Source: a virus. From it: a DNA stretch of 28,900 nucleotides. The DNA is taken from positions 1-28,900 of the IMG/VR virus record IMGVR_UViG_3300030107_004746. One strand, written 5' to 3'. Position numbers and translations under genes: made by a program. Positions 1,028 through 28,825 of this stretch are shown here, one piece after another. Positions within the stretch are counted from its first letter, which is position 1. Each line of letters opens with the position of its first letter. The notes under the pieces are model-generated. The model was not told where the DNA came from, made no database searches, and saw nothing but the letters and a program-made list of their open reading frames with translations.

Positions 1028-1068
1028 AATTAAAATTTATTTCAGCTGAAAACTTTAAAATTTTAATT
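1028..1068 (-). terminator. AT-rich inverted repeat at the 3' end of the giant gene; possible terminator
   Basis: The arms AATTAAAATTT (1028-1038) and AAATTTTAATT (1058-1068) are complementary and flank an inner palindrome TTTCAGCTGAAA. The structure overlaps the stop codon of the 3217-residue gene. In the minus direction a run of eight T (complement of 1003-1010) follows, but about 18 bases beyond the stem, too far for a textbook intrinsic terminator. The stem is almost all A:T. It could equally be the DNA-level flank of the operator-like 26-bp repeat listed separately. Confidence 0.25.
1032..1057. repeat. 26-bp repeated motif with TTCAGCTGAA core, copy 1
   Basis: The plus strand reads AAAATTTAT-TTCAGCTGAA-AACTTTA. 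A second copy with one base difference (T/C) is on the opposite strand at 23486-23511. The 10-bp centre is a perfect palindrome and the outer bases are conserved but not symmetric, so the two copies have a definable orientation and are inverted relative to each other. Both lie between the end of one transcription unit and the 16-mer element at the start of the next. Inferred role: operator for a dimeric phage regulator. Confidence 0.6.
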
Positions 1069-7000: not shown

Positions 7001-10000
7001 TTTGCAATATCATCTATAATGCTTTGATTGTATTGTTCTCTTGGCTGAAACTTGCTTTCATCCATTTTAATATCTTTTGGATTAATATCAACGACATCTA
7101 ATTTTTTAGGAGCATCTACAAATTCCTGTTTTGGGATAGTACCCACTATGACATTACTGATAATGTCTTTTTCTCCTCCTGGTTCTATTACATTCCCAGA
7201 TTTATCAATTAACTCCCCAGTGGGCATAATATTATTATCAACGACTTCATCAGTTTCTATCCAAACTGGTTTCCCATTACGAATCTCAATATCGTTATTT
7301 GCAATGCCTTCTTGTATGTTTTGATTCCATTCCTTACTGGTAACATCTTTTGGAGAAACTTTTTTCTTTGTTTCTAACTTTGGCTTTTCTTTTGTCTTTA
7401 GCTTTTTATCCTCTTTTATTTTTACAGACTCTGGTATAGGCTTTATACCTTTTGCATATTTTATAGCTGCAACTTCAGCATCTTTCCAATTTATATATTC
7501 GATCGGAATATCATTCCACTTACCATCTCCCTTTCTTACTTGTATTATATATCTGTTTTTTGGCGATAAATGATCCAAATTATTTTTACCATCTCTTTCT
7601 TTAAAAGATATACTTGGATCTACCTCTGAAAAAAGAACATAAGAACCCATATCGTCTGGTAAATCACCAGTATATATTTCATCCTTTCTATATATTTTAT
7701 CAGTTGGCTTTATAACAGAAAGATGTTCATAATGAAATTCTGTAAAATTAGAATTGTGTTGATGATTGTTGTATAATTTGCCATCCTTTACAATTGGGAA
7801 TTGAGCTATATAAACATAGGCGGGTTCTTCATATTTCCTTCCCTGTCCATCTTTTTTTGTTACAGTTTCGTATCTACTATATATTTTTACTTGCCCATCC
7901 TCTTCTCCGATTTTTACAACTTTGTATCCTCCTCCTCCGTGCATATTCCCTACTACTATATCACCAACACTTACTACTTTTTTTATTTCTTCTAAACTGG
8001 ATTCTTTTGGAAATCTTTTTGTATAAGGCAATATACCAGGTCTATCTTCGCCATCCTCATCTTTCCCATATTTATTAAAATTCCAATTTTTATCACCAGT
8101 AAGCAATTCACCCATAAATTCTCTGCTTTCGCTAAATTCCATTTCACTATATAGTTTTTCACCAGGCTCACGCTTTTCGTATGGATACTCTACTGGTTGT
8201 GCTTCTTTGTAATAATCTATGATTTTGTTTATTAATACCTTTTTAGAGTCTATTGATTTTGTTTTAATCTTTTTTTGTTTTGAATATTCTTGTAATTCCT
8301 TTTTATTGAGATTTTCCAGAATAATAGTAATGTTTTCAGTTGTTCTTTCATCTCCAAATCCTTCTGCAAAACCTAACCTTTCAATTGTTTCTTCTTGGCT
8401 TTCTGATTTTGTTTTTGGTGCTATTTCTGTTTTTTTAGTTTCAAGCTTTTTCTTCTTTTTTGTTTTTAATTTTGGTTTTGGTTTTAATTGTTTTTTAAAT
8501 GATTTAACTAAAGAAGCACCTTCATCAGATTGCATACCAAAACTTATATTATCACTATTAAGATCAAAATCTTTTGCTATTTTCTTTAAAATACCAGAAG
8601 CTAATCCTTGTCTTTGATATTCTTCTGTAACAAAAACATTATCTATTTGATATTTACCAGATGCAGTTACATCTGGTCTAAAAACTTCTGCTTTTGCAAT
8701 TATATCGCCTTTTTCATTTACTTGGTAATATACTTCGCCTTCTCCACTCTCTAATCCTTCTTTGTATATTTTTTTATCAACAGGAGGTATTTCTATTTCT
8801 GGTTCTACTTTTTCAACTACTGGTTCTTTTGTACCATCTTCGCCAAACAACTCTTCACGCATTTTATCTCTGGTGACTTTAACAGGAACTTTTGGCTTTA
8901 TTTCTTCTACCTCTGGTTCTTTACCTTCTAACTGCACTGGTTTTATTTCTTCCAGTTCTGGTTCACCATCTTTGTAAAAGTTTACAGGCTTAATGCTATT
9001 AGCTATGATCTCTAATCTATCCTCCTTGCCCAGATTTATAACTTGTGTTTCAGAATACCCTAATTTCTGGAGGTTTTTTCTCTGATCATTTAATGACATC
9101 TTTACAAGATTATCTCTTGATATAGATGGTATTTCGCCCTCTACAGGCACTTCTACAGACTCTTTTAGCTTTTTAACTTGTGGCTCTCTTGCTCTGGTAG
9201 CTTCTTGTGCAGTTTGTTTACGAATAGCCTCACCAGTTGCTCTTCTTGCACTTAATTTTTGCAAACCATATAATATGTTTTTTCTAACATCTTGTATATC
9301 TTTACGCAATTGCTCTGTAGTTGGGTTGCTATTGCGATACTTTTTTAATGAATCTATAATAAATTTTCTGGCTTCATCTCTTTCTGCTCTTGTTTGCAAT
9401 CCTTTGATCTGTGGTTTAAAATATGTTAAAACATCTTTTGCAACTCTTTCATAAAGTATTCTTTGTTCATTTGGCTTAATGTTTTTTCTATTGATTAATC
9501 CAAACCCCATAAACATTAATGCGTTTATCGTTGCTTCTTTTGGATCTCCAGTTTCGAGTATACCAGTAGTAAAACCAACTAAACCTTCAGCGGGTATACG
9601 CTTAAACGGACTACTAACAGATCCCGCAGCACCCAAGCCAACCCCAAGAAATGCACTTCCTAATATATTTTCTACCTTTTCGCTTACTGGAAGATCCTCA
9701 CCGATCATATCTAATGCACTATAACTTCCAAAGGTTTGTGCTGAAGAAATTGCTCTACCAGATACATCTGCAACTTGTCTTGCTTTAACTGGATCCATTG
9801 TTCCAATTTTAAAACCTTTATCAATTTTCTTTGCACCCGCTAAAGTTTTCTCAACTCCTCTTGTTACTTTTGCAAATGTTTGTGGTGCTTTTAATATTGT
9901 ACTCGTACCACCATACCCCAATAACATTCCCACACCACCATACATAAATCTTTCAATTGGACTTGCTTGAAAACTTAATTCTGCTTCTCTTCTTGTGTCT

Positions 10001-10716
10001 GTTGCTCCAATAGGAACTGCTGATTTAAAAAGTTCCTCAAATAAATTATAACCCTTGCTTGATAAAGTACCTTCACTTACTAATTGATCTAATGTTTCAT
10101 CCTTTGCAATATCCTCTGCTGATTTTTGATCCCCTGGTATTGTATATGGTGTTCCAGACATTGGATCAATAACTTCCCTATCTGGCTTACTAACTGGTTT
10201 AGCATATTTAATTTTTTCTCGATATATCTTTTCAAATTCTGGTCGTATTTTTTCAATCTCTGCCATAACATCAACTTGTTCATCAGAAATCTCTTGAGAT
10301 CTTGGTACTTCAACCTCTTCATCTGTATAACCTACTTGGGGGCCTCTGTACACTCTTTTCTTTTGCACATCTGGTTCACCAGAACGCATAATATATTGTG
10401 GCTCAAAATCATTATTTAACCACTGCTCTTTTAATTTTGACTGTATATCTTGAGCTTCACCCTTACCAGTGCTTTCAAGCTTCTTTATTTCCTGTAGTTT
10501 TTCGGTAGGATTATCACTTTTTTCAATTACCTCATTTCGCCTTCTATTATATTGTATATCGAGGTTTTTGTTATCTAAAAATAGGTCTATCGCATTTTTT
10601 GTTTTGGTCTTGCTCGGAAGTGGAGCCTCACCAGTCAAAAATGGTAAGCCAGTAAGTTCTTGTTTCTGTTCTTTCTTTGGTTTTAGAGGTTTTATCTCAA
10701 ATTTCTTTTTTGGCAT
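1063..10716 (-). CDS. Giant polyvalent virion protein (3217 aa) with SAP, GNAT, ParB-like, ART and JAB domains
   Basis: One uninterrupted 9.65-kb frame. Approximate order seen: hydrophobic Gly-rich segments at 258-275 and 349-405; a SAP/LEM-like stretch at 540-580; GNAT-like domain 659-740 (VFVTEEYQRQGLASG); SAP-like helices 795-835; ParB/sulfiredoxin-like domain 1205-1300 with SGHHRIKG near 1262; coiled coils near 1453-1486 and 1655-1720; ART-PolyVal-like ADP-ribosyltransferase 1738-2092 (YHGSPH at 1740, GWGLYF near 1765, VVFDDKAI at its end); RadC/JAB-type domain 2150-2305 with the metal motif HNHPTGSPEPSKAD (H2250, H2252, D2263); and a long C-terminal polyvalent-type region from about 2500 ending in a very basic tail. 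Known: such multi-domain 'polyvalent proteins' (Iyer, Aravind and colleagues) are thought to enter the host with phage DNA and counter host defences. Inferred: ejected internal virion protein, from its place where T7 gp15/gp16 lie. Its start forms a TAATG overlap with the upstream gene. Confidence 0.85.
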   Translation of the reverse strand: MPKKKFEIKPLKPKKEQKQELTGLPFLTGEAPLPSKTKTKNAIDLFLDNKNLDIQYNRRRNEVIEKSDNPTEKLQEIKKLESTGKGEAQDIQSKLKEQWLNNDFEPQYIMRSGEPDVQKKRVYRGPQVGYTDEEVEVPRSQEISDEQVDVMAEIEKIRPEFEKIYREKIKYAKPVSKPDREVIDPMSGTPYTIPGDQKSAEDIAKDETLDQLVSEGTLSSKGYNLFEELFKSAVPIGATDTRREAELSFQASPIERFMYGGVGMLLGYGGTSTILKAPQTFAKVTRGVEKTLAGAKKIDKGFKIGTMDPVKARQVADVSGRAISSAQTFGSYSALDMIGEDLPVSEKVENILGSAFLGVGLGAAGSVSSPFKRIPAEGLVGFTTGILETGDPKEATINALMFMGFGLINRKNIKPNEQRILYERVAKDVLTYFKPQIKGLQTRAERDEARKFIIDSLKKYRNSNPTTEQLRKDIQDVRKNILYGLQKLSARRATGEAIRKQTAQEATRAREPQVKKLKESVEVPVEGEIPSISRDNLVKMSLNDQRKNLQKLGYSETQVINLGKEDRLEIIANSIKPVNFYKDGEPELEEIKPVQLEGKEPEVEEIKPKVPVKVTRDKMREELFGEDGTKEPVVEKVEPEIEIPPVDKKIYKEGLESGEGEVYYQVNEKGDIIAKAEVFRPDVTASGKYQIDNVFVTEEYQRQGLASGILKKIAKDFDLNSDNISFGMQSDEGASLVKSFKKQLKPKPKLKTKKKKKLETKKTEIAPKTKSESQEETIERLGFAEGFGDERTTENITIILENLNKKELQEYSKQKKIKTKSIDSKKVLINKIIDYYKEAQPVEYPYEKREPGEKLYSEMEFSESREFMGELLTGDKNWNFNKYGKDEDGEDRPGILPYTKRFPKESSLEEIKKVVSVGDIVVGNMHGGGGYKVVKIGEEDGQVKIYSRYETVTKKDGQGRKYEEPAYVYIAQFPIVKDGKLYNNHQHNSNFTEFHYEHLSVIKPTDKIYRKDEIYTGDLPDDMGSYVLFSEVDPSISFKERDGKNNLDHLSPKNRYIIQVRKGDGKWNDIPIEYINWKDAEVAAIKYAKGIKPIPESVKIKEDKKLKTKEKPKLETKKKVSPKDVTSKEWNQNIQEGIANNDIEIRNGKPVWIETDEVVDNNIMPTGELIDKSGNVIEPGGEKDIISNVIVGTIPKQEFVDAPKKLDVVDINPKDIKMDESKFQPREQYNQSIIDDIAKNYDPAKWEEPVLWKDDTGDMYVVSGHHRIKGAVEGNISEVPVKVLPEGTTLEQARDYAGESNVTRTQQSDFENAAEVRRRLDRGDKALDIANIMPGMFPKAKTDASKKSAISNLANLSYLDSNGKLKQNYESTNEFPRIVSISKFVGGLRKKHDFLTDRHEDDIFTHLYTENAIKGDVDDFYRKIDNIIERMESLDDKPASILKELRKEPQKVNEDAATEIKDKAKELEKHIDNLKRQLDDRRIMDDLTTDRIVAIDKKKYANEEKTAREYDKKWQKESNWFKNLYRLTSKELYYTQRGEASMTSQPGAISLSDMDQKHLESIKQAVKDGKNFRSDVHNEFQQKAEIPFELVKSEAFEERPYIEYYQETVAIVKEQIKQARQELKIIIESSNKDDENQTSIFESMKQYNIFGGVDRVKTLDTRQKAELESIYDELIQINKELEQLSNQQKNKKINTLSYNKQYKELQQRKVQAEKQKDAIIKDTPQDKVEQYNLFDSMTKYHGSPHNFKSFSTKEIDSGEGTQNEGWGLYFTDKKEIAQWYAIRLGDTTTKKWRMGNLTLIGQDGVGSVFNYDPYLMEKEWYKHSPMIRHHNKYKDSLIYAEIIEDFLIKEISLKNAALPEKGKLQTEPDKTRTPKDVVKIFIKESITHNERYIVDEPEYKDGYENKIRIYNELLKLIEKDDFEFEIFKDKNVYEVEIASKSPDEFKWMDWDAPLDEQLRDDLYKVLKDIKSGKIETPRYFDKQKLKSPVYMEMVEDILGISPDYFDDIVTGRQIYEFLKADMKPNSGINKDGNAFLDASMPSKEKATSMFLRDYLKLDGNRYKAMNKTGGDTGDIYNYVVFDDKAISIKDHSMFEPSERFPNFTDIKKPFRENATPEQKDLTIQLRKELSEPNPRGAEDSGAWSGLGSGYTIRGNAITKPLREKGFIDLVGTKVKTSHDLAMAAQVLRDPRYETLRIFYIKDNKVVFQNAVTNRLPGAVMGLDDVSGKDLSAVIREGMSNTKADGYYMMHNHPTGSPEPSKADLKYTSIQDKEVKGFLGHIIIDSGSYATITKSPEAKGLRVKQIEFDAYPDDKLLKPSIEHKWLGKEIYNTADLAPVARGLEQNGFFTLIGLDGHNRIRGVVDVPYEFFNDKVHKMQKTLKEISANIGSMKMISIVDADSGISPWHLTTLNKLNVSDSLTDIIVKQNGKLNSYADHSPRALTFGEKGSTLVAEKKKIDNPRRKALARAHILENEIGLTDDERRTYKKVITGYDSLGEASDTEIASYIDWLLKRKYGSKPIRQISAPKKKTLKELAAERKQEIDEDRETIMQRASKVLKKPIDGLGLYWVYNRQSMQRTLEKMGDGGNALLKMFKEADYYHSSKVKPSEVQMEKLWKKVPSDEKEIMKKIIESDGASDLSEGGQAFLRFWKDTTNDIYAEGKKYINEELNFIENYFPLSLKPEIYNDMSPQHPRWDEIVDHVQRVISGRVSQGDVFSGYSISKEETEKYIIDFLDNYRKQGLRQHFIQQVFEPTGKFKHSYPLELHRDRIFPEWAYVNDVMDIAHAYIDKSYEAIGYAKEFGKMDEEYKYENIDKELEVISADGYDHKLAANIMGWSMGLKRQDIYDETFNRVARSTTTFLLTPRTTLKNLTDLGKAFSQSGTLNTLYSIARLYIARNKKDRQLAHDLIGSKYVFAQSLEKTGIGAKMASFYADNVILFTRSERSVRETIGFSRVLQAEQLLKNYDPSATGMMQDHIKRLFNVVTDGLDIDKIKRRGYFTRDEKLRIGNNAIGQTQPTSTIDKPYNWASKGFWTRKSIFQSFSHRSIRWLKDFILEETKRGNMFPMVNLILWRLALGYGYKEASDWLWNKEPEEEETKMKKAWGIMLETGEIGIIGDLLFAVQHSGWANPFISILFGPKYSLMFETLMNFGQTVNRAINDKENPLRPIKRQAARMTIKRIPFVGQKIYDENFGRKKKKLKTKKAPTKRSKGRQAVYN

Positions 10717-19624: not shown

Positions 19625-21474
19625 TATGCTTGACTCCCTTGTATAAATTGTGAAATACGCTCCATAATGGCGGGATCTAATGCTTGTAATTGCTCACTAC
19701 TCAATAGATCTGGTTGTTCCATTATCATTTGTGCTAATTGCTCCTCTTCTGGTGAACCACTACCCGCTTGATTAACCATTTCAATTACTTGCCCCATTTG
19801 ATCAGCTTGTTGTTCTTGTTGCTCTGGTGGAACCATACCCTGTCTTTGATAGAATCTTTCAATAATATCCTGTTTATCTGGCTCATCTAATGCCTTAACA
19901 ACATCTTCTATGCCATAAATACCTTGAGTAAACAACTCAATCGCTCTTTCCTCTTTTGCTAACCTACCACCAGGGTATCGTGATCCACTCGCCACCTCAA
20001 CATCAAATTCACTATCCATAAGTCTTTTAGCTGATGTTGGATCAAACTCTGGTGTACCTTCTGCATTTCCTTCTGCATCAAACACTCCTTGAGGGTTATA
20101 CTCAATAAATTCATACGCACCAGTAGGGTTTTTCTCACGAATCTCTGATATTTCTGTATCATATATCTGCATTAGATTGACCATATATGTACCGATCTCT
20201 CGCACATATCGCTTTACTTCTTGATTAATTTTAAATCGTATCCTTGTTTGACTGGCTTCTTGCAATGCCATAATGGCTCTACCAGACTTTACCCCTGTAG
20301 GAGTTCTGCCTTGTGTTACATCCTGTATACCAGTAATCGCATCCATAAACATTGTATTCTGCTGCACAAAGTTTTGTATATACGAAGGAATAGTAGGTGG
20401 TTGCTCCCAAGAAACATCATTTGGATCATCTACTAATATTTCTTCCCCTGGTCTACCAGTAATCGGTCTTACTGCCTTCGCTTTCGCTCTTGGTGTTATT
20501 TTTCTTGTCGGGAATCCCGCTTTACGAATGTTATCTGCTACTGCTGACATTGTTTCATTAATTGTTTTTACAATAGTGCGAACATTCTCTGGTTCACCCC
20601 TACCCCAGAATTGATGAGGTGATTTATAATTACCAATCATAAACACTGGCATCCGATATATTTCTAATGGTTCATCAACAAGCAATGTCTCACCCGCTAT
20701 GATCGTATGCCTACCATTTGGATACGCTTTTTTATCTGGATCATCAAAGTAACATTCAATAACCAGTGCCATATCCTTATTGTTTTTACGATCATTGTGA
20801 TGTGCCTCACCATCTTCTATCTGAAATGCTCTAAAATCATCTAAATTCCCTTCACCACCTGGGCGAACACCAAATTGTGCTTCAATAGTGTCTAAACTCA
20901 TTGGTACGCAGAATAAGAAGTAATTATTGTTTTCTAACTCTATATCTGTCGCATATGCTTCTGGTATTACTGTAAAAGGATCTACCACTTGTATATCAAA
21001 CCCTGTAAATACACCTTCCTCACTAAACTCTGGTAACACTTCGATAAATCCATTACCATATAGAAGTGCATCCTTCACACTTTCAATAATTTTAGTATAT
21101 AAGTTGGTGTTTTGTGCAATCTGTTGAAATCTCTTGTGCATTAAATCAGCAAAGAATACATCGTTACTACCTTTAGGCATTATGTCCACTACTGGCATAA
21201 AGTCACCAATGATAGGCAATATTGTTTCTACTGCACTAAATGGGAAGTTATACACCATACGAGTCTGCCATCTGGTTGTCGGTGCTACATTACCCCAGTG
21301 ATTGCCATAATATAAATTTTCGTTCTTTCTCCAACGATCTGTTTTCTGCTCCCTCGCCTTTTTACTTTGATCAAACCACCTTCTTATCCTTGCTATGTGA
21401 TCGGCAGTTTCAGCGACATTCTTTATATGTACATCTGGTTCAAGTGTGGTGGATGTATCTGATACAATAGCCAT
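19624..21474 (-). CDS. Portal protein (616 aa)
   Basis: N-terminal features of podovirus portals are visible: helix ARIRRWFDQSKKAREQKTDR, then WRKNENLYYGNHWG (about 47-60), TRMVYNFPFSAVETILPIIG, and KIIESVKDALLYGNGFIEVLPEF. In the core are IEDGEAHHNDRKNNKDMALV, GNYKSPHQFWGRGEPENVRTI-VKTINETMSAV, the wing-to-clip region QNFVQQNTMFMDAITGIQDV and TGVKSGRAIMALQEASQTRI. The Gln/Glu-rich C-terminus (about 560-600) resembles the barrel and tail of such proteins. Length is normal for the family. It starts in the terminase stop (TAATG) with GGAG 9 bases upstream. Role: dodecameric ring at the packaging vertex, connecting terminase, head and adaptor. Confidence 0.9.
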   Translation of the reverse strand: MAIVSDTSTTLEPDVHIKNVAETADHIARIRRWFDQSKKAREQKTDRWRKNENLYYGNHWGNVAPTTRWQTRMVYNFPFSAVETILPIIGDFMPVVDIMPKGSNDVFFADLMHKRFQQIAQNTNLYTKIIESVKDALLYGNGFIEVLPEFSEEGVFTGFDIQVVDPFTVIPEAYATDIELENNNYFLFCVPMSLDTIEAQFGVRPGGEGNLDDFRAFQIEDGEAHHNDRKNNKDMALVIECYFDDPDKKAYPNGRHTIIAGETLLVDEPLEIYRMPVFMIGNYKSPHQFWGRGEPENVRTIVKTINETMSAVADNIRKAGFPTRKITPRAKAKAVRPITGRPGEEILVDDPNDVSWEQPPTIPSYIQNFVQQNTMFMDAITGIQDVTQGRTPTGVKSGRAIMALQEASQTRIRFKINQEVKRYVREIGTYMVNLMQIYDTEISEIREKNPTGAYEFIEYNPQGVFDAEGNAEGTPEFDPTSAKRLMDSEFDVEVASGSRYPGGRLAKEERAIELFTQGIYGIEDVVKALDEPDKQDIIERFYQRQGMVPPEQQEQQADQMGQVIEMVNQAGSGSPEEEQLAQMIMEQPDLLSSEQLQALDPAIMERISQFIQGSQA

Positions 21475-22796
21475 TAAATGTTACTCCAGTCTTGTTGTTC
21501 TACTTCTGGTTCTATAATAATTGATTCAATAAAATTCTCTTCTGCCTGTTTTGGTGGTGCAGATTTCACATTATCAAAAGCATATGCCGTCATATACCTC
21601 CAGCTATCCATAGCGTGATCATCCTTCTTTAATGGTCGCTCTGGTTGATTCATATCAATCTTTGATGCTGACGGCTGCTCCCACTGGTAATTGATTACCT
21701 CCCTCAAGAAATTGACACAACTACGCATTACTTTAACCTTATTGCTTTTAATGTAGTGAGTTACCTTATCAATGCCACCTTGCACATCGTTCCAAGCATT
21801 AACTACTGGTACATTTAATGTTCTGTACCTATTCCCAATTGTTTCTGGATCATCTTGCTTCCCCGCACCAGTAGAAGGATCAATTAAATAAACCTCTGAT
21901 AAACCTTCACCTTTATAAGCATTGATTATCTTTGCGTGATGATCAACATCCTTACCAGATTCATAATGCTCACGATATACCCATAGCACATCATCATTAT
22001 CAATCGCACCCCATAGCACGGCAGTCGGGTTTGTTCTGCCGTGATCTATTGCAATAATTCTTGTCCATTCTGTTGGCAAACTTCTGTCATTTACAACATG
22101 GAGGTTAGTATCGAAGTCTGGGTAGATCTGCCCTTCAAAGGCATCCCACGAGCCAAATAAATAACGATTCACCCAAATATCATTGTAATTCTTCTGCAAA
22201 GACTCAATATAACCATCTGGTAGGTTGTCTTTGTTTTCATCTGTTGGAGCATTATACATCTTATGCCCAGGTATCGGATCGTGAATAAAGCGTTGCCATA
22301 CCCAATTATGCCCTAATGGATTACCAGTGATCCATCCTTGCACACTATCTACTGCACGAAGTCTACCTAATAATGTTAGATACACTTCTTCAGCAACTTC
22401 TTCAGCTTGGTCAATGTAGAACCAACCAAGATTGATACTCAAAAGCTTTGCGGGATCATCGAGTGATCTTAATATTACTTCGTGACCATTTTTAAATATG
22501 ATCCTGTTCTCTTGTTTTTTGTACTCGTAATGATAGCCAGGAACAAACCCAAATAAGTGTAATATCTCAAAAAAGGTTCGTTGCGTGGAATCCCGCAATT
22601 CTGGATATGTCTGCCTTGCAAGAAGTCCAAGTTGTGGTGGCTGATCTGGATCCAGTATCCGCAGTATTGCCTTTAAACAACCCGCAAATGTTTTACCATT
22701 ACCCAAACCACCAAACATTCCAACGATTGCAGACTCATCAGCAACAAATTGTTGCTGCGTATTGTTTAATTCTACATTTACTTCGTTATTTTCCAT
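21474..22796 (-). CDS. terL: Terminase large subunit (440 aa)
   Basis: ATPase domain: Walker A GGLGNGKT at 29-36, Walker B WFYIDQAEE with D129 and catalytic E132, and a coupling-motif region near TLLGRLRAV and WITGNPLG. RNase-H-like nuclease domain: IIAIDHGRTNP (D251), YLIDPSTGAG (D306) and DDHAMDSWRY (D397) supply the acidic residues. It overlaps the end of the small subunit gene by 11 bp and is coupled to the portal gene. Function: packages the genome into the procapsid and cuts concatemers. The packaging type (cos, headful or terminal repeats) is not evident from the sequence. Confidence 0.95.
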   Translation of the reverse strand: MENNEVNVELNNTQQQFVADESAIVGMFGGLGNGKTFAGCLKAILRILDPDQPPQLGLLARQTYPELRDSTQRTFFEILHLFGFVPGYHYEYKKQENRIIFKNGHEVILRSLDDPAKLLSINLGWFYIDQAEEVAEEVYLTLLGRLRAVDSVQGWITGNPLGHNWVWQRFIHDPIPGHKMYNAPTDENKDNLPDGYIESLQKNYNDIWVNRYLFGSWDAFEGQIYPDFDTNLHVVNDRSLPTEWTRIIAIDHGRTNPTAVLWGAIDNDDVLWVYREHYESGKDVDHHAKIINAYKGEGLSEVYLIDPSTGAGKQDDPETIGNRYRTLNVPVVNAWNDVQGGIDKVTHYIKSNKVKVMRSCVNFLREVINYQWEQPSASKIDMNQPERPLKKDDHAMDSWRYMTAYAFDNVKSAPPKQAEENFIESIIIEPEVEQQDWSNI

Positions 22797-23076
22797 TCTT
22801 TTTCGCCTTGATCACTACAGTAGGCATGGTAACCTTTACCCCACCTTGCACATCTATTTCTTGAGCCTTTAACGATGGAATTGATTTGTCCAATAAAACT
22901 TTTGCACAAGTCATTGCCTGTGGATGTTCTCCTTTTGTGTTTAATGTTGATGCAACTGTAATCACTTTATTTATTACTGTTTTAACCTTCGGATTTGCCC
23001 TTAATTCTTCTGCCAGTGAAATCTTGGGCCTTCCCTTTGGATTATTTGTTTGACCTTTTTTAAGTCCTCTTGCCAT
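22786..23076 (-). CDS. Terminase small subunit candidate (96 aa)
   Basis: The N-terminus GLKKGQTNNPKGRPK (about 4-18) is the 'KGQSGNPKGRP' pattern of DUF5681-type phage proteins often found before terL. The middle HPQAMTCAKVLLDKSIPSLKA and following acidic EIDVQGG resembles the C-terminal half of small TerS-like proteins (helix, Pro-Ser-Leu-Lys, then short strand). Length is shorter than classical TerS (140-180 aa). The direct overlap with terL supports the role: DNA recognition and loading of the large subunit. No strong SD precedes the ATG, so the start is the least certain part. It could also be a DNA-binding accessory, with the true TerS elsewhere. Confidence 0.65.
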   Translation of the reverse strand: MARGLKKGQTNNPKGRPKISLAEELRANPKVKTVINKVITVASTLNTKGEHPQAMTCAKVLLDKSIPSLKAQEIDVQGGVKVTMPTVVIKAKKNGK

Positions 23077-23107
23077 TTTGTTCTATTTTGTTTTACAAAT
23101 ACTATTT

Positions 23108-23251
23108 TTACGCAATCCCTACAATTATTTCATCTGTGTAATATCCCTGTTTCATTGCATAAATCGTCATATATGAACGAATAAAATCATCACTATGTTT
23201 TTTAAATTTTATTGGAAGGTGTAAAACGAGACTTGCAGAATCAGATTTCAT
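23108..23251 (-). CDS. 47-residue unknown protein before terS
   Basis: Short frame beginning MKSDSASLVLHLPIKFKKHS and ending YTDEIIVGIA, stop TAA at 23108. It starts inside the end of the 53-residue gene (ATG overlapping ..GAAATCTGA) and has GAGG 6 bases upstream. The sequence resembles nothing I can name; the centre KHSDDFIRSYMTIYAMKQG looks helical, and similar short segments occur in small DNA-binding proteins. Arrangement and SD make it a likely real gene, perhaps an accessory to packaging because it lies between the unit's promoter region and the terminase genes. Confidence 0.6.
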   Translation of the reverse strand: MKSDSASLVLHLPIKFKKHSDDFIRSYMTIYAMKQGYYTDEIIVGIA

Positions 23252-23402
23252 CCCAAACCTCTTTTACTTGTGTGGATTCTGGCTTTTTTTCTGGAACTGA
23301 TAGGACAGATTCGCCCTGTATTCCTTTTCTATAAATATATGCACCCGCCAGTGCTGATAGGATGCAAGTTATCGAATGTATAATTAGAACATACAAATTC
23401 AT
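23241..23402 (-). CDS. 53-residue single-pass membrane protein
   Basis: The frame encodes MNLYVLIIHSITCILSALAG, then AYIYRKGIQGESVL... to ..KEVWDEI. Residues 3-22 form one hydrophobic segment and are followed by a positively charged YRK; the rest is soluble and charged, so an N-out/C-in or anchor topology is plausible. It is the first gene after the transcription-unit boundary and overlaps the 47-residue gene by 11 bp. SD is weak (AAGAAC), and a dyad lies exactly in front of the ATG. An in-frame-shifted upstream ATG at 23430 opens only a 34-codon frame that I do not favour. Possible roles include lysis or membrane association of packaging; none is shown. Confidence 0.55.
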   Translation of the reverse strand: MNLYVLIIHSITCILSALAGAYIYRKGIQGESVLSVPEKKPESTQVKEVWDEI

Positions 23403-23420
23403 GCGTAAAGTTCTTAACGC
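23403..23420 (-). promoter_or_regulatory. 18-bp dyad abutting the start of the 53-residue gene
   Basis: The sequence GCGTTAAGAACTTTACGC is symmetric except for one central T/T pair in each arm and lies immediately before the ATG at 23402. As RNA it could fold over the ribosome binding region; as DNA it could be an operator. Symmetry is seen, role is inferred. Confidence 0.35.
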
Positions 23421-23440
23421 AGATGTCCATTAAATAAGAG

Positions 23441-23456
23441 GGAATGTGAAATATTT
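23441..23456 (-). promoter_or_regulatory. Repeated 16-mer, copy 2, upstream of the packaging/virion unit
   Basis: An exact copy of the 16-mer at 971-986, in the same orientation, here 39 bp before the first gene of the packaging and virion unit and downstream of the replication genes. Identity over 16 bp in two of the few intergenic gaps is seen. The consensus -10 present at the first copy is not at the equivalent distance here, so a shared regulator site or phage-specific promoter is more likely than a plain sigma70 -35. Confidence 0.45.
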
Positions 23457-23485
23457 TAAAATAATTTGAAATTCACTTAAACTAA

Positions 23486-23511
23486 TAAAGTTTTCAGCTG
23501 AAGTAAATTTT
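23486..23511. repeat. 26-bp repeated motif with TTCAGCTGAA core, copy 2 (inverted)
   Basis: On the minus strand this reads AAAATTTAC-TTCAGCTGAA-AACTTTA, one base different from the copy at 1032-1057, which is on the plus strand. It starts 6 bp after the stop of the 46-residue gene. The palindrome has no loop and no U-run follows, so it is not a good terminator. A protein-binding site is the simpler reading. Confidence 0.6.
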
Positions 23512-23517
23512 AAAAAA

Positions 23518-23658
23518 TTAAATATGAATTACTTTTCGTTGCTTTTGTAGTAGTTCTTTATATCTCTTCATCGTCACTGGATGTACATCTCCTCTGGCGA
23601 TTATTTTCTCATAAACCTCAAGAACTACAACGCTTGGTTTTTGTCTAATAGTAGGCAT
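23518..23658 (-). CDS. 46-residue basic protein following the replication initiator
   Basis: Short frame MPTIRQKPSVVVLEVYEKII, ARGDVHPVTMKRYKELLQKQ, RKVIHI, then TAA. It starts in the stop codon of the initiator gene (TAATG) and is the last gene of the replication unit. It is basic, with two probable helices (VVVLEVYEKIIARG and HPVTMKRYKELLQKQ), a size and make-up compatible with a small DNA-binding or partner protein. No family recognised. It might help load or regulate the initiator; it could also be a truncated terminase-small-like HTH. Both are inference. Confidence 0.65.
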   Translation of the reverse strand: MPTIRQKPSVVVLEVYEKIIARGDVHPVTMKRYKELLQKQRKVIHI

Positions 23659-24620
23659 TATTTTATTTTTGTTCCTTGTAAAATAGTTTCTAACATTTCA
23701 TCAACACTTCTTTCTTTCTCTGATTTTTGTACCACTTTTAAAGGATTTTTCTGTTGTTTTCTGTGTTCGTACTCCCATTTTGGGATAAATTCTCCTTCAC
23801 ATTCACAAAATCGCTCGTATATGGACAGATCTTTTTCACTTTCTATCTTTTTATCACATCCATCGCATATAAATACTCTCGGCTTTATTTCGACTTTTTT
23901 GTTGGACTCTAACACTTTATGTATCGGATCCTCCCAACATTCGCCATAGAGCCAAGTCTTAAACATCGGGATATACTTGCTATCTGTTTCTTTCCAGTTG
24001 TGCTTTATTTGTTGTTTAAGGGCAGTAAGGATAGTCTGGTGATCTGTCTTTTTAAGTGCTGCACGATACTTCTCTTCTGCTTTTTTCTTTCCGTTCTTGT
24101 TTGGATAAATTTTCCAAGCTTCTAAAAAATGAACAGAGTATTTATTTATTTTTCTATTATTTAACTTATTATCATTATTATTTGTATCACTTACTGTATC
24201 GGGTAGCGTATCGGGTGCCGTATCACTTGGTGTATCATTATTTTTTCGCAATCCCTGTAAGTCTCTGTATTTTAGTATAGTTACGATTGTTTTGGGTGTA
24301 TCACTTGCCGTATCGGAAGGTGTATCGGAAGGTGTATCAGTATCCGTATCAATTGTTATTTCTATCCTCTGATCCTTTTCAAGCTTCTTAAAAAACCGAT
24401 GCACCTTCATTTTATCCCATTTCCATCGTTTACCCAGATACCTATTGGAGTGACAAATCTGCCCTCTTTTTAGTGTTTCATTGTCATCATATTCAGCCAG
24501 TTGTAATAGATCTATCCAAGCCTCATATCTGGTAAACGATCTCTTCTTTTGCAATGGATGTATATCGCTATTCATTATTCTCCGTTCCAGAGAAATATAA
24601 CCAACAGTTTTTATACTCAT
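23658..24620 (-). CDS. Replication initiator / replisome organiser, lambda O-like (320 aa)
   Basis: Three parts are visible. Residues about 20-85 look like a winged helix (SFTRYEAWIDLLQLAEYDDN, then GQICHSNRYLGKRWKWDKMK-VHRFFKKLEKDQRI), the N-terminal DNA-binding domain of many phage replisome organisers. Residues 88-146 are a linker of four-residue DT-x-x units. Residues about 158-230 carry FLEAWKIYPNKNGKKKAEEK and IPMFKTWLYGECWED, a conserved block of phage replication proteins. A zinc site follows: C252, C255, C272, C274. Known: lambda O binds iterons inside its own gene and recruits the helicase; here the linker DNA has that same character. The start has GAGGA 10 bases upstream and an ATGA overlap with the preceding gene. 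No helicase or loader is in the window, so the host's or one further right is used. Confidence 0.75.
   Translation of the reverse strand: MSIKTVGYISLERRIMNSDIHPLQKKRSFTRYEAWIDLLQLAEYDDNETLKRGQICHSNRYLGKRWKWDKMKVHRFFKKLEKDQRIEITIDTDTDTPSDTPSDTASDTPKTIVTILKYRDLQGLRKNNDTPSDTAPDTLPDTVSDTNNNDNKLNNRKINKYSVHFLEAWKIYPNKNGKKKAEEKYRAALKKTDHQTILTALKQQIKHNWKETDSKYIPMFKTWLYGECWEDPIHKVLESNKKVEIKPRVFICDGCDKKIESEKDLSIYERFCECEGEFIPKWEYEHRKQQKNPLKVVQKSEKERSVDEMLETILQGTKIK
24184..24243. repeat. Iteron-like array A, five 12-bp units
   Basis: Units begin GTATC at 24184, 24196, 24208, 24220 and 24232; for example GTATCGGGTAGC and GTATCGGGTGCC. They encode DT-x-x residues of the initiator linker. The last seven positions vary between units while GTATC is constant. 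Confidence 0.75.
24298..24357. repeat. Iteron-like array B, five 12-bp units
   Basis: Units begin GTATC at 24298, 24310, 24322, 24334 and 24346, with an extra GTATC at 24340. Two adjacent units are identical (GTATCGGAAGGT). The block lies 54 bp from array A and also encodes DT-x-x repeats. Confidence 0.75.
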
Positions 24621-24847
24621 TTTAGATGAGTCCTCACAAAGTTGATTAGTTTTCCATTACCTATTTTTCGTTGTTCCCACTTAATGATCTGTTGTTGTGT
24701 CCGATGTATCTTAAAAGCAAATATCTCATTATTCTTTCGTTCTTCTGCGTATTTAATCTCCAGTTCAACTTTTTTATTGTTGAGTTCATCGTACTCTTCT
24801 CTGGGTACAACAAATTTCCGAATGAACTTTTTTATTTTTTTAATCAT
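24617..24847 (-). CDS. 76-residue basic coiled-coil protein
   Basis: The frame can be extended upstream to 24874, but the ATG at 24847 has GGAG 8 bases before it and overlaps the stop of the preceding 49-residue gene, so I choose it. The protein starts MIKKIKKFIRKFVVPREEYD, followed by a heptad-like helix LNNKKVELEIKYAEERKNN and a second helix with QQQIIKWEQRK. The amphipathic basic N-terminus could lie on a membrane or bind DNA. It has an ATGA overlap with the initiator. No family recognised. Its neighbours suggest a replication accessory, but nothing shows this directly. Confidence 0.6.
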   Translation of the reverse strand: MIKKIKKFIRKFVVPREEYDELNNKKVELEIKYAEERKNNEIFAFKIHRTQQQIIKWEQRKIGNGKLINFVRTHLK

Positions 24848-24989
24848 TTTTGCTCCAAGATTTATACCATTCATAGATATGTTTAAATAATATATCTAAC
24901 GATGCGGGAAGAAATACCAGTGATGCAATGAGCATTATAATACTGGTACTTAATATCCATAGGTTAGCTATCCATTCATATACGATCAT
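24840..24989 (-). CDS. 49-residue membrane protein with a perfect Shine-Dalgarno
   Basis: The stop codon of the SSB-like gene overlaps the sequence AAGGAGG, which is followed four bases later by ATG at 24989; this is the strongest ribosome binding site in the window. The protein runs MIVYEWIANLWILSTSIIML, then IASLVFLPASLDILFKHIYE and WYKSWSKND. Residues about 8-34 make one long hydrophobic segment, followed by an aromatic, charged tail. Without it there would be a 120-bp gap. It overlaps the next gene by 8 bp. Small phage membrane proteins can be holins, superinfection blockers or membrane anchors for replication; the position in the replication operon favours the last, as inference only. 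Confidence 0.7.
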   Translation of the reverse strand: MIVYEWIANLWILSTSIIMLIASLVFLPASLDILFKHIYEWYKSWSKND

Positions 24990-24998
24990 ACAACCTCC

Positions 24999-25280
24999 TT
25001 AAAAGGGTAAGCTATCATTCTCATCGCCTGGATCATGTGGGGAACGATCTTGCCCTTGTTTTGGTTTATAGGTGTTTAATTCCATATAATGCGTTTGTCC
25101 TTTTTCACCGACTTCTCTACGCTTTTTAATATCAACATTAACCCATCCATCATTGTTTGTAAGTTCACCTAATTGATCAACTGCATCCTTATGAACTGCT
25201 AACTTGATAATACTATTCCCATCACCAAAAGTATGTTCCTTGATGCTGATTCCGTTAATATATACTTTTTCTTCTCCCAT
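24999..25280 (-). CDS. Mini single-stranded DNA-binding protein candidate (93 aa)
   Basis: Beta-rich core VYINGISIKEHTFGDGNSII, KLAVHKD..., WVNVDIKKRREVG, YMELNTYKPK, followed by a Gly/Asp-rich disordered tail that ends DENDSLPF. An acidic tail closing in a hydrophobic-Pro-Phe tip is the hallmark of bacterial and phage SSBs (E. coli SSB ends DDDIPF), used to bind RecQ, exonuclease I and other partners. The body is shorter than a classical OB fold (about 110 residues), so it may be a reduced OB or unrelated fold. Neighbours (exonuclease, annealing protein, RusA-like enzyme, initiator) fit an SSB. The SD AAAGGA lies 6 bases before the ATG. Confidence 0.65.
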   Translation of the reverse strand: MGEEKVYINGISIKEHTFGDGNSIIKLAVHKDAVDQLGELTNNDGWVNVDIKKRREVGEKGQTHYMELNTYKPKQGQDRSPHDPGDENDSLPF

Positions 25281-25282
25281 TT

Positions 25283-25612
25283 TTATTCCTTTCCAAAATT
25301 GAGTTTGAAGTTGTGTATTTCTACTTCGTGGTATTTGTCTGGTATCTTATCCAAGTTGATTAGATGTTGTGAACCTAAAAAGTAATATGTCCAAAATGGT
25401 TTACTTGGCATATTGACATGAATAAAATGAGCAAGACCTAACTTACCCGAAGATTTTTCAAATGTAACCAGTGCTGCTTGAGCCGATAATGGTTCAATTT
25501 GGTGTACAGTAAATGTTTCGCCAGAAAAGTTATTTGAGCGATCTGTATGGCTATATTTATAGGCAACTTCCGTTGCTTTGTTGTATAATGATTTTGCAAT
25601 TTCTTTAGTCAT
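25283..25612 (-). CDS. Conserved-looking phage protein, unknown function (109 aa)
   Basis: No named family. The sequence has an N-terminal helix (IAKSLYNKATEVAYKYSHTD), then alternating strands FTVHQIEPLSAQAALVTFEK, LGLAHFIHVNMPS, FWTYYFLGSQHLINL and a C-terminal HEVEIHNFKLNFG. The well-balanced hydrophobic pattern and compact layout suggest a folded enzyme-like or binding domain, not a disordered peptide. AAAGGA precedes the ATG, which overlaps the previous stop as ATGA. It lies between a zinc protein and the SSB-like gene, so a DNA-metabolism role is possible. Confidence 0.7.
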   Translation of the reverse strand: MTKEIAKSLYNKATEVAYKYSHTDRSNNFSGETFTVHQIEPLSAQAALVTFEKSSGKLGLAHFIHVNMPSKPFWTYYFLGSQHLINLDKIPDKYHEVEIHNFKLNFGKE

Positions 25613-25797
25613 TTACATCCTTTGCATATTTTTCTCTTACGCTTATAAGTTGGAAAATCCTCATAATAATTAATACCATTAGCACTATTGACATACTTTA
25701 CTTGCCAACACCTTTCACAACATTCGCAATAAAAAATATTGTTATCAGCAAAGTTTCCATCGTGGTTCCAGTTTGTTGGTTTACGACCTCGGCTCAT
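25609..25797 (-). CDS. Small zinc-binding protein (62 aa)
   Basis: Cysteine pairs are placed as in two-knuckle zinc fingers: YCECCERCWQ (C24, C26, C27, C30) and ICKGC (C58, C61), with NYYEDFPTYKRKRK between them. I recall small phage proteins with the same outline, a CxxC, Tyr/Trp, 'YYxDFPTYGxxRxxC' and final CxxC, in replication or recombination regions, but have no function for them. The 5' end overlaps the RusA-like gene by 17 bp and the 3' end overlaps the next gene as ATGA. There is no clear SD, so translation may depend on coupling. A nucleic-acid-binding role is inferred. Confidence 0.65.
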   Translation of the reverse strand: MSRGRKPTNWNHDGNFADNNIFYCECCERCWQVKYVNSANGINYYEDFPTYKRKRKICKGCK

Positions 25798-26215
25798 CGT
25801 ACATAATTAGTATCTCGGTTCTCGGATTATCTGTATAAAATCTTTTCCCATATATCTCATTGATCTGGCTATCATTATCAAAGAATCTTTTTGATAACTG
25901 CAACGCATCCATTGTGAATTTTAAGCAGTTATCTATGTCTGGCATTTTAATATGAACCATTGGTGCTGAAGGTTTTAGTTTTCCGCTATTTTTTCCAGTA
26001 CCATAATGGGATTTTGGCCTGTCGAAGTGATACTCGACTGAAAGGGAGATCGCTCCATTTATGGGCAAATTTGGAGCATATAAATTGGCAATCTTTATAA
26101 AATTGTGCTTATCCTTCTTGGAAGGATCATAATTCCAAAAATTGCCGTTCTTATTTACTGATCTATGTCTCTTCTGTGCTTGTGGTTGCCCTGGTATAGT
26201 TATGCTTATCTTCAT
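25781..26215 (-). CDS. rusA: RusA-family Holliday junction resolvase (144 aa)
   Basis: Family signs: the N-terminal strand MKISITIPGQPQAQKRHR (RusA proteins begin with the same 'IPGxPxxKxRxR' pattern) and the catalytic block MPDIDNCLKFTMDALQ with D93, D95 and K99, followed by FDNDSQI (D113, D115). These match the E. coli RusA acidic residues that bind Mg2+. Length fits the family (about 120-145). The ATG at 26215 is not preceded by a good SD and overlaps the upstream gene by 53 bp, but it begins the first family strand, so I keep it. It resolves four-way DNA junctions or trims branched concatemers before packaging. Confidence 0.85.
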   Translation of the reverse strand: MKISITIPGQPQAQKRHRSVNKNGNFWNYDPSKKDKHNFIKIANLYAPNLPINGAISLSVEYHFDRPKSHYGTGKNSGKLKPSAPMVHIKMPDIDNCLKFTMDALQLSKRFFDNDSQINEIYGKRFYTDNPRTEILIMYDEPRS

Positions 26216-26369
26216 TTGGTATGTGGTTTTCTATTAGCTGATCAACTTTGTGGAGAGTTGATTCAACTTGATTTTCACGCTTTTCATCGTGTTCGTGTTT
26301 GTATCTTGCCATCTCTTTAGCAAGACCATTTTTAATATGAAAAATGTCTGTGTGGGTAAATGTCACCAT
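26163..26369 (-). CDS. 68-residue helical protein, unknown
   Basis: MVTFTHTDIFHIKNGLAKEM, then a charged helix ARYKHEHDEKRENQVESTLH-KVDQLIENHIP, and a polar C-terminus rich in Thr. It starts in the stop codon of the zinc-ribbon gene (TAATG) and overlaps the RusA-like gene by 53 bp, a long overlap that leaves a shorter, 5'-only reading possible. High Glu/Lys/His content and coiled-coil character fit a small regulatory or inhibitor protein. Not a recognised family. Confidence 0.45.
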   Translation of the reverse strand: MVTFTHTDIFHIKNGLAKEMARYKHEHDEKRENQVESTLHKVDQLIENHIPNEDKHNYTRATTSTEET

Positions 26370-26554
26370 TAAAAAGATTCCTCTGGTAGTTCTAATTCAC
26401 ATCCGCAATCTTCACAGGATAAACTTTCAGATGCGTTTACTTCTGGCTCGTATGGCTGCCAACTTTTGTTCTCGTGGACACACAATGTCTGGCTCGATTC
26501 TTTCACCACGCTCTTCTTTTCTTTTAAGTCTACTATGCTCTCGAATACACTCAT
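26369..26554 (-). CDS. Small zinc-ribbon protein (61 aa), overlaps the upstream gene
   Basis: A ribbon is visible: C25-x-H27 followed by a strand with W32, then C47-x2-C50 with G51 and a third Cys at 52. The N-terminus MSVFESIVDLKEKKSVVKES is helical and charged. The ATG at 26554 has AAGGA 8 bases upstream, and the 3' end is TAATG-coupled to the next gene, so the frame looks translated even though its first 128 bp overlap the C-terminus of the 113-residue gene in another frame. Metal-binding small proteins of this kind occur often in phages and can act as transcription or repair adaptors; here the role is unknown. Confidence 0.6.
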   Translation of the reverse strand: MSVFESIVDLKEKKSVVKESSQTLCVHENKSWQPYEPEVNASESLSCEDCGCELELPEESF

Positions 26555-26768
26555 TAATTAATTCCTTCATTTTGACAGGCGGGATCTCGCATAAAGGGGT
26601 ATAGCCAACCAAAGATTCCTTTACATTTATCACCCTGTAAATTCCAATGCCCTCTGGATAATCCAGTTGAGCAAGGGAGTACCTTTTTACTAAATCCCGC
26701 CATTCTCTATTCCCTAAATAGGTTTGTTTCCTTTTAGTATGGCTTTTATTCCCTCTGCCAAATTGCAT
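26427..26768 (-). CDS. 113-residue basic protein, unknown
   Basis: Strongly basic at both ends: MQFGRGNKSHTKRKQTYLGN at the N-terminus and HSRLKRKEERGERI... RARSKRI at the C-terminus. The centre WRDLVKRYSLAQLDYPEGIG, IYRVINVKESLVGYTPLCEI looks like a small alpha/beta domain. No HNH, Zn or nuclease motif can be seen. It starts 55 bp inside the end of the annealing-protein gene with AAAGGA 6 bases before the ATG. The two overlaps (55 bp upstream, 128 bp downstream) are unusually long. A nucleic-acid-binding recombination accessory is plausible from charge and neighbours. Confidence 0.6.
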   Translation of the reverse strand: MQFGRGNKSHTKRKQTYLGNREWRDLVKRYSLAQLDYPEGIGIYRVINVKESLVGYTPLCEIPPVKMKELINECIREHSRLKRKEERGERIEPDIVCPREQKLAAIRARSKRI

Positions 26769-27526
26769 AATTGATCCTTTGTTAAACTGGGAGCAAAGGT
26801 CTTGTTGTCAAAATTGGCACGATTACCACATTTATTTTTTACAAACTCGATAATCTCTATCTTTTCAATTTTATCATCATCAATCTTGTCAATTACGGCA
26901 AATATGTTATTCCCTAATTCCTCTTTTGTCTGATCCTTTGCATCCTTCTTTTGTTCCTTTTCCTTCATATCATCCAGAGTCTTAATCTTGGCTTTTTCTG
27001 TATATTCCTTCTTTTTCATATTCGCTTTTACCTTGCGGATTCTATCTTCCTCTTGATCTTTTTCATTCCAATCCTGTTGAAACATTTGAGATAATCCAAA
27101 AGTGGTAAGTACCGCATCAATTAATGCAGATTTCTTTGCCATCTTTAACGCAGCATTGATATTTCCGTGATGCTCTTTCACAGATCTGCCACCGATGCCT
27201 GTACCTATGATTCGACCATTTTGCTCTAACTCACATCGTATAACAATTTCCTTAATATCTACACCAGAGTACGCTGCCTCTTCGTATTTATGTAAACTTG
27301 GAAATGTTGGTGTAAGTCCTGTTGCACTAACAATCTTTTCTGCACCTGGCTTTTCCAGATTTTTCTTATTTCCTCTTCTTGCTGCGTAATCTGTACCTTC
27401 AATAAGACTATTCCCTATCCAAACACAAAGTGTTGCTCGATTACTCGCTCTCCTATCCAACCCACTCAATAAATCCTTTTCTGATAGATCCATCGGATGA
27501 GTGAATACTGTTCCATTTTTGCTCAT
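26714..27526 (-). CDS. Rad52/ERF-type single-strand annealing protein candidate (270 aa)
   Basis: The N-terminal 140 residues (ATLCVWIGNSLIEGTDYAAR, KIVSATGLTPTFPSL, VIRCELEQNGRIIGTGIGGR, then NINAALKMAKKSALIDAVLT-TFGLSQMFQQD) match the pattern of phage ssDNA-annealing proteins of the Rad52/ERF/Sak group, where a conserved 'A-x-KMAxxRAxxDAxLxxxGLSxxFTQD' helix closes the domain. The C-terminal half is Lys/Glu-rich (RKVKANMKKKEYTEKAKIKT and following) and ends in a possible compact helical part. It sits directly after the YqaJ exonuclease with an ATGA overlap and SD GGAGG; the exonuclease-annealing pair is the usual phage recombination module (like lambda Exo-Beta). It anneals the 3' strands that the exonuclease exposes. 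The family is by pattern; a search would confirm it. Confidence 0.7.
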   Translation of the reverse strand: MSKNGTVFTHPMDLSEKDLLSGLDRRASNRATLCVWIGNSLIEGTDYAARRGNKKNLEKPGAEKIVSATGLTPTFPSLHKYEEAAYSGVDIKEIVIRCELEQNGRIIGTGIGGRSVKEHHGNINAALKMAKKSALIDAVLTTFGLSQMFQQDWNEKDQEEDRIRKVKANMKKKEYTEKAKIKTLDDMKEKEQKKDAKDQTKEELGNNIFAVIDKIDDDKIEKIEIIEFVKNKCGNRANFDNKTFAPSLTKDQLCNLAEGIKAILKGNKPI

Positions 27527-28464
27527 TTTTTTACCTCCGTTACTCTAAATGAACGAAAACCATTGCCTTCCTTTGTGTACTTTTCAAGTAGATCTGGATG
27601 ATCTGCACCAAACCCCTTTTTATCAAAAGACTTGCGTGGCTTTCCTGTTTTGTATGATACTGTCCACTGGTTATCTATATCCCGAATACCATCTGAATCA
27701 CCAATGAACTTTTTAATGCTAAATTCAATATTCTTTTGTTCTTCCTGTAAAGTTTTAATCTTCTCTTTTAAAGTGATTAGATCCTTTACGAACCATTGAA
27801 TCTCTCCTTCACTGTCAATAATTTGAATGTCACCATTGCTTTTTGGAAATAGCTTGGCAACATCATCACTATTTATAGGGGGTGGCGGGGTTTTCTCAAT
27901 AACATAAGATTCCCAAAAATCCACCAGTTTGGGTTTTACGATGCCCCACCACTCCCTGTCGAATTTGACTTCTTCTATTTTATAATCGTGGAATCCAATC
28001 TGTATAGCAAAGAACACTGAATCAAATCCAGTGATAGCCATCTGACCTTGTGCTTGGATCTGGTAATACAATGGAATCCTATCCTCCCAATGTCTGTATA
28101 TCATTGGATCCACAGTTTTGATTTCTATTGCAGACTTAACACCATCATCCCTTCTCACAATACCATCCAGATTCGTAGTTAAATAATCATAGTCTTTATG
28201 GATGCGTATCTTTTTATCCCTAACTACCTTTAGACCAGTCTTTTCCGTAAACCAATGGCGAACAACTTTCTCATATAAATGCCCTTGCTGAAAACGGAAA
28301 CTGTGAATGTCCTTTGCACCATTCATTTTTTCTTCCCATAGTTCATATGGTGTTTTCCACGGAGAATATCCTAAAGCTGATGCAAAGTCACTGGTTCCAA
28401 TGGATGCCTGTCTGATCGCTATCCAGTCCTCTCTGGACATATCTACTGTACTTATGTAATTCAT
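27523..28464 (-). CDS. YqaJ-type recombination exonuclease (313 aa)
   Basis: YqaJ/lambda-Exo pattern: RQASIGTSDFASALGYSPWK-TPYELW (G-x-S and 'ALGxSPWxTPxxLW'), FRFQQGHLYEKVVRHWF, LTTNLDGIV and SAIEIKTVD (catalytic D and E-x-K), then QIQAQGQMAITGFDSVFF. These are the metal and catalytic residues of the PD-(D/E)XK exonuclease fold. A start at 28482 is possible, but the ATG at 28464 has GGGAGG 8 bases upstream, comes 1 bp after the previous stop and begins right before the domain, so I choose it (313 aa). It resects dsDNA 5'-to-3' to give the annealing protein its substrate. C-terminal residues about 230-300 form a coiled coil (DLITLKEKIKTLQEEQKNIE). Confidence 0.85.
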   Translation of the reverse strand: MNYISTVDMSREDWIAIRQASIGTSDFASALGYSPWKTPYELWEEKMNGAKDIHSFRFQQGHLYEKVVRHWFTEKTGLKVVRDKKIRIHKDYDYLTTNLDGIVRRDDGVKSAIEIKTVDPMIYRHWEDRIPLYYQIQAQGQMAITGFDSVFFAIQIGFHDYKIEEVKFDREWWGIVKPKLVDFWESYVIEKTPPPPINSDDVAKLFPKSNGDIQIIDSEGEIQWFVKDLITLKEKIKTLQEEQKNIEFSIKKFIGDSDGIRDIDNQWTVSYKTGKPRKSFDKKGFGADHPDLLEKYTKEGNGFRSFRVTEVKK

Positions 28465-28465
28465 C

Positions 28466-28825
28466 CTACTTGCCCTCCCCATCTATTTCATCAAGCATCT
28501 TTCTTAATTTTATGGTATTAGACAGTGGAATATTTATTATAACCTTCTTTACTTTCCCTCTTGGTGTCAGCTTTATATTTGCAGCACACCTTGCAATTAA
28601 TGTGTAGTAAGGTTCTCCCTCTTCTGTTCTATAATATCCTTCAGTATAAATAGATATGTTTGGCTCTTCTACCCCTTTTGGAATAAATGTTCTTTCACCA
28701 GTATTAATATCTACTTTGTGAATCCCTTGTTCATCTTCTCTCTTAATATCTTCAACACTTACGCCAAGTGTTAAACCATCCCTACTACTATTTATTAGTT
28801 TTTCATTTAATTGATTAGTTGCCAT
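28466..28825 (-). CDS. 119-residue unknown protein, first complete gene of the recombination set
   Basis: The start has AAGGA about 8 bases upstream (28839-28835 complement). The protein has beta-rich segments GEPYYTLIARCAANIKLTPR and KVKKVIINIPLSNTIKLRKM, preceded by a polar N-terminal third (INSSRDGLTLGVSVEDIKRE). No catalytic motif or family is recognised. Its last codons carry the SD for the exonuclease, which supports co-translation and a role in DNA metabolism or as an accessory to the exonuclease. No signal peptide or membrane segment. Confidence 0.7.
   Translation of the reverse strand: MATNQLNEKLINSSRDGLTLGVSVEDIKREDEQGIHKVDINTGERTFIPKGVEEPNISIYTEGYYRTEEGEPYYTLIARCAANIKLTPRGKVKKVIINIPLSNTIKLRKMLDEIDGEGK

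Follow-up and report, generated by a model that had tools for sequence, protein, structure and literature searches.

The locus examined here raises the question of whether a phage carries its replication origin inside the gene of the very protein that would bind it, or whether a repetitive stretch of protein is simply mirrored in its DNA. The window, by which we mean the whole 28,900-nucleotide stretch analyzed (positions 1 to 28,900 of the IMG/VR virus record IMGVR_UViG_3300030107_004746), contains a predicted initiator gene in which the pentamer GTATC occurs 11 times on the plus strand, split into two blocks, A and B (Table 1). A first-pass annotation, made from the sequence alone, had described these copies as two blocks at nearly exact 12-bp spacing, and our counts agree: eight pairs of GTATC lie exactly 12 bp apart in the window, compared with 0.09 expected under random placement. 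The sole array copy off the 12-bp grid of its own block is the one at 24340, a half-step copy within block A. Read on the coding strand as GATAC, the copies start at gene offsets 270, 276, 282, 294, 306, and 318 in block A and at 384, 396, 408, 420, and 432 in block B, with 66 bp from start to start between the nearest repeats of the two blocks. The AT-rich tract reported beside one of the blocks is also present; its 45 bp adjoin block B and contain three C and no G. A DNA similarity search of the array region in a phage collection gave no match, as did Rfam and tRNA scans, and GC skew, which had been proposed as a means of mapping the replication start, shows no switch in the window.

Table 1. 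Features of the initiator gene and its repeat array (window positions).
Feature	Position	Strand	Description
Initiator gene, 320 aa	23658..24620	-	N-terminal winged helix, disordered linker, C-terminal domain
Winged-helix DNA-binding domain, codons 1-122	24254..24620	-	Wing loop interrupted by block A; predicted from AlphaFold and weak PDB matches
Block A	24298..24350	+	GTATC at 24298, 24310, 24322, 24334, 24346 (12-bp grid) and at 24340
Spacer between blocks	24237..24297	-	Encodes wing strand 2 and the helix that follows it (KTIVTILKYRDLQG)
Block B	24184..24236	+	GTATC at 24184, 24196, 24208, 24220, 24232; exact 12-bp spacing
AT-rich tract	24139..24183	.	A or T at 42 of 45 positions; putative unwinding element; encodes NNNDNKLNNRKINKY

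The product of the gene matches the PHROGs family of replication initiation proteins phrog_270 (E = 1.2e-18), and its C-terminal half matches phrog_270, 9474, and 9327; NCBIfam gave no match for the protein. The AlphaFold model has a mean pLDDT of 74, with values of about 89–97 across residues 11–90, and displays a winged helix with helices at residues 59–66 and 70–82 and wing strands at 86–91 and 110–115. Foldseek searches with this model returned MarR- and CRP-type winged helices and initiator N-domains, all with weak E-values. Given the placement of the two wing strands in the model, block A, which spans codons 91–108, encodes the wing loop between them. The first-pass annotation had put both blocks in the linker between the domains; this holds for block B, which encodes the start of the linker (residues 129–159 have pLDDT <50), but not for block A, which the model places inside the wing loop of the DNA-binding domain. 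We also note in the C-terminal half a conserved CxxC ... CxC stretch (FICDGCDKKIESEKDLSIYERFCECEGEF) that resembles a zinc ribbon.

The winged helix is homologous to that of gp38 (G38P), the replisome organizer of Bacillus phage SPP1 (BLASTP, 31% over 144 columns, E = 2e-17; tblastn within the phage collection, E = 8e-10, H29), and both proteins match the DnaD-like phrog_186 and 2514. SPP1 gene 38 contains the origin oriL, which consists of gp38-bound direct repeats and an AT-rich unwinding element (PMC6316719). In this gene, the strand IVNYEKWQG has the 11-bp repeats just behind it and, beyond those, a tandem tract rich in AT (AACAATGAT); block B and the adjoining AT tract occupy the same position, just past the last wing strand. 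The wing of SPP1 carries one repeat copy, AAAAAGACA, where the window has the whole of block A, and the gp38 side of the alignment shows a 15-residue gap exactly at block A. In phage phi879, AAAAGACA occurs in the wing, and the linker holds copies at 339, 350, 361, 383, and 394. The window thus shares with G38P-type initiators a homologous N-terminal winged helix, linker repeats after the wing strand, and an adjoining AT-rich tract, whereas it differs from SPP1 in the period of its repeats (12 bp, in codon frame, and in two blocks, as opposed to 11 bp of the ACGAAAAAGACA type, out of codon frame, and in one main block) and in the absence of the TIGR02220 C-terminal domain. Other relatives likewise have 12-bp arrays, so we treat the repeat period as variable rather than defining, and because the C-terminal domain differs, we assign the window to the G38P type for its N-domain and origin layout only.

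That an initiator gene can house the origin is already known from lambda, SPP1, TP901-1, and Tuc2009, and the same has been inferred for 80alpha. The lactococcal replisome organizers TP901-1 ORF13 and Tuc2009 Rep2009 bind direct repeats in their own genes that constitute ori (PMC8965321), a likeness of plan to the window. ORF20 of the Staphylococcus phage 80alpha is a gp38 homolog for which an in-gene origin was inferred because a deletion was not complemented in trans; the same study describes no array of the form seen in the window (PMC5499656). In lambda, iterons and an AT-rich region lie in the middle of the initiator gene, and extra iterons lengthen the protein (PMC7466680). The first-pass annotation had called the window array lambda-like, and the shared plan of iterons and AT-rich tract within the gene stands. 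The homolog, however, is SPP1 gp38: no lambda O family was matched by the window protein in Pfam at E 0.1 or among PHROGs at E 0.01, lambda O has been called unrelated to gp38 (PMC5499656), and the lambda iterons number four to six, differ in sequence, and form one block. We therefore use lambda as an analogy, for an origin that may work alike, and claim neither common descent of the plan nor kinship of the initiators.

These comparisons, along with the selection on DNA described below, make it highly probable that the repeats are the replication origin of an uncultured phage, located inside the gene of their putative binder, as in SPP1. This reading draws on the layout, on homology to an initiator whose own gene has been published as the site of an origin, and on DNA selection beyond coding, and it lends strong support to the first-pass proposal of an iteron origin with an AT tract in the initiator's own gene. 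By analogy with SPP1, we infer that the winged helix of the initiator would bind the repeats of both blocks (coding-strand core YGATACR, 12-bp period), that the loaded blocks would bend or wrap the DNA, that this distortion would open the adjacent AT-rich tract, and that the C-terminal domain would then recruit the helicase machinery. No helicase loader or DnaB-type helicase was recognized among the window genes scanned.

Iterons of the plasmid type often have a further role in replication control, and the sites bound by the initiator could likewise be mainly a control element, for autorepression or for copy number, with the true origin elsewhere. Besides the oriL of gene 38, SPP1 does have another origin, oriR, located away from that gene (PMC6316719). 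We nevertheless regard such a role as unlikely, given that block B has the AT tract beside it, the arrangement found in SPP1 oriL, that a position deep within the gene would be odd for a promoter operator, and that no second GTATC cluster of this kind is found elsewhere in the window, though the genome may extend beyond it.

A further explanation is that only the protein is repetitive, with a flexible acidic DT-x-x extension of the wing and linker giving rise to the DNA repeat as a by-product of its codons. The period of 12 bp is in codon frame, as this explanation would have it, and for that reason a blind period-12 test is not decisive for the window array (p = 0.16 in the window, 0.05 in L001, and 0.06 in L002, two orthologs). 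The consistent use of GAT for Asp had been put forward as an argument for a DNA element, and this argument fails: GAT accounts for 517 of the 582 Asp codons (89%) in the larger ORFs of the window, and with the protein held fixed, a GATAC count as high as that seen has p about 0.28 to 0.35, so GATAC itself goes little beyond what the protein demands. Similar DT repeats also occur in many unrelated viral proteins. Scanning viral contigs for the 12-bp GATAC pattern yielded at least 120 stretches, mostly low-complexity DT repeats in unrelated proteins among the matches listed, and we rejected the pattern as an origin finder because it is unspecific. About 15 of the 120 matches listed (L005–L124) were classed as initiators, some with a different N-domain in L010, L019, L033, and L062.

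The bases flanking GATAC speak against a repeat at the protein level only. With the protein fixed, YGATACR occurs 10 times versus 2.7–5.2 expected (p 2e-4 to 4e-4 in the window, L001, and L002 each); because this motif was read off the window and is partly post hoc, the two orthologs provide the better, though related, tests. In L044, whose initiator is 39% identical to that of the window over 128 residues and is joined to a 78%-identical terminase, CGATACA is found eight times versus 1.1–1.6 expected (p = 5e-5). There, both blocks keep to the 12-bp grid, with GGTAC (Gly-Thr) at two of 10 grid positions. Among the scan matches listed, split by eye into initiators and others, a pyrimidine precedes 0.81 of GATAC copies at the 15 initiator loci versus 0.45 at the 105 other DT-repeat loci. 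On the evidence of sequence comparison, the constraint on synonymous bases flanking GATAC in the three orthologs shows that the DNA is under selection beyond coding, with the proviso that the relatives compared are not independent of each other.

To place the array within its family, we gathered homologs by their N-domain, ignoring the array, and added a few phage records, which gave 92 dereplicated genes including the window gene and its two orthologs. An iterated HMM search with the arrays unmasked was discarded, as it drifted to any DT-rich protein. Repeats were scored by shuffling synonymous codons within each gene, with correction over 19 periods and a threshold of p ≤ 0.01, in the 63 genes that were long enough. 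Linker repeats beyond coding were detected in 32 of the 63, and 29 of these have a period of 11 or 22. In two control regions taken from the same genes, the final 80 codons and the N-domain, the count was 0 of 63 each. Successive copies of an 11-bp repeat fall in all three reading frames by turns (33 bp being 11 codons), which a repeat of the protein would not yield; such repeats, which do not fit codons, sit at the same place in most homologs. Across the family, the gene position of the repeats stays the same, but their sequences differ. Moreover, 38 of 90 genes have a word shared between wing and linker that is longer than in at least 95% of control segments, so a wing copy is common among these initiators. 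As a separate observation, the near-identical prophage initiators L135, L141, and L136 differ from each other by one, two, or three copies of RKDSEKTVKEH, an 11-residue unit whose 33 bp comprise three 11-bp repeats, and their array length thus varies in frame-keeping steps.

A second array-blind scan, anchored on the terminase, gave 80 loci, 48 of which have an initiator-like ORF. The 66-bp gap of the two-block form is common to the window, L001, L002, L280, L281, and L283 (the L044 contig), and the layout of block A is kept in L001, L002, and L044. Other terminase-linked loci have linker arrays on the 12-bp grid plus one or two wing copies, spelled GACAC or largely GGTAC. In L291, all eight array Asp codons are GAC, whereas the rest of the gene has nine GAT and one GAC; the arrays of L307 (7/7), L317 (7/7), and L301 (7/8) likewise favor GAC. 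Relatives that keep DT but use GAC freely were what the first-pass annotation expected of a repeat without a DNA role; GAC is indeed used, but uniformly within an array, while other Asp codons are mostly GAT. This wholesale switch against the gene's own usage favors a DNA element over a protein repeat. Asp usage in the array differs from that of its own gene at p<0.05 in 10 of 17 arrays, and the combined p of 1e-12 over the 17 is overstated because the genes are related. The array of L295 is mixed, with six GAT and two GAC. Repeats of 11 bp occur in two members of the same lineage, L310 and L323, and a third, L321, gives a signal at 22 bp.

The spacing also survives a change of the DT residues themselves: in L286, L287, L290, and L355, arrays are largely GGTAC, which replaces Asp with Gly on the same 12-bp grid. 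An array thus tends to be spelled in one way within a genome and in other ways in other genomes, the pattern that binding sites following their binder should show. Despite 86% identity of the initiators, the arrays of L291 (GACAC) and L295 (mostly GATAC) are spelled differently; the two proteins differ in the recognition-helix region as well, which is no more than suggestive. In light of the constrained flanking bases, the switched Asp codons, the Asp-to-Gly replacements, and the 11-bp repeats, we consider a repeat at the protein level alone very unlikely. Functionless expansion of tandem repeats by replication slippage can be set aside as hardly credible, for although repeat number varies among relatives and L135, L141, and L136 differ by 33-bp units, the array layout is kept across 74% to 39% protein identity and repeats recur at one gene position throughout the family with different sequences.

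If the repeats are taken as a probable in-gene origin, three traits set it apart: a 12-bp period in phase with the codons, a block that lies within the wing, and arrays that are respelled as wholes from one relative to another. In the open-licence papers searched, we found no previous account of phage initiators with iterons of 12 bp or with iterons embedded in the wing. Since a 12-bp period is in codon frame, single repeats could be gained or lost without a frameshift, whereas the 11-bp relatives would need 33-bp steps of three repeats. It is conceivable, though we hold the idea tentatively, that the origin has expanded into the wing, part of the very domain by which it is read, and that the initiator's specificity and the origin diverge together as a single self-encoded unit; as part of this idea, the respelling of whole arrays (GATAC, GACAC, GGTAC) alongside protein changes would reflect their joint divergence. 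If so, such a unit could stop co-infecting relatives from using each other's origins.

The phage lineage represented here lacks a close match in the phage collection searched, and the locus supplies it with a probable replication origin. For SPP1-gp38-like initiators in general, it suggests a sequence rule for locating origins, with the wing itself and the region immediately past its final strand as the places to inspect. The locus also offers a clean comparative case in which the same DNA is a putative binding site and part of the coding sequence of the binder. A single lineage, traced by terminase linkage, includes both the 11-bp version, which shifts the frame, and the 12-bp version, which keeps it, so the competing constraints lend themselves to a direct test.

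Elsewhere on the minus strand of the window, genes for a RecE-like exonuclease, a protein with a weak Bet-like annealing protein match, and RusA adjoin the initiator and terminase genes (21474–28825), and the order of these genes is kept in L001. The 3217-aa protein encoded at 1063–10716 of the same strand gives weak matches to GNAT, ART-PolyVal, and RadC/JAB and resembles polyvalent proteins known from other phages.
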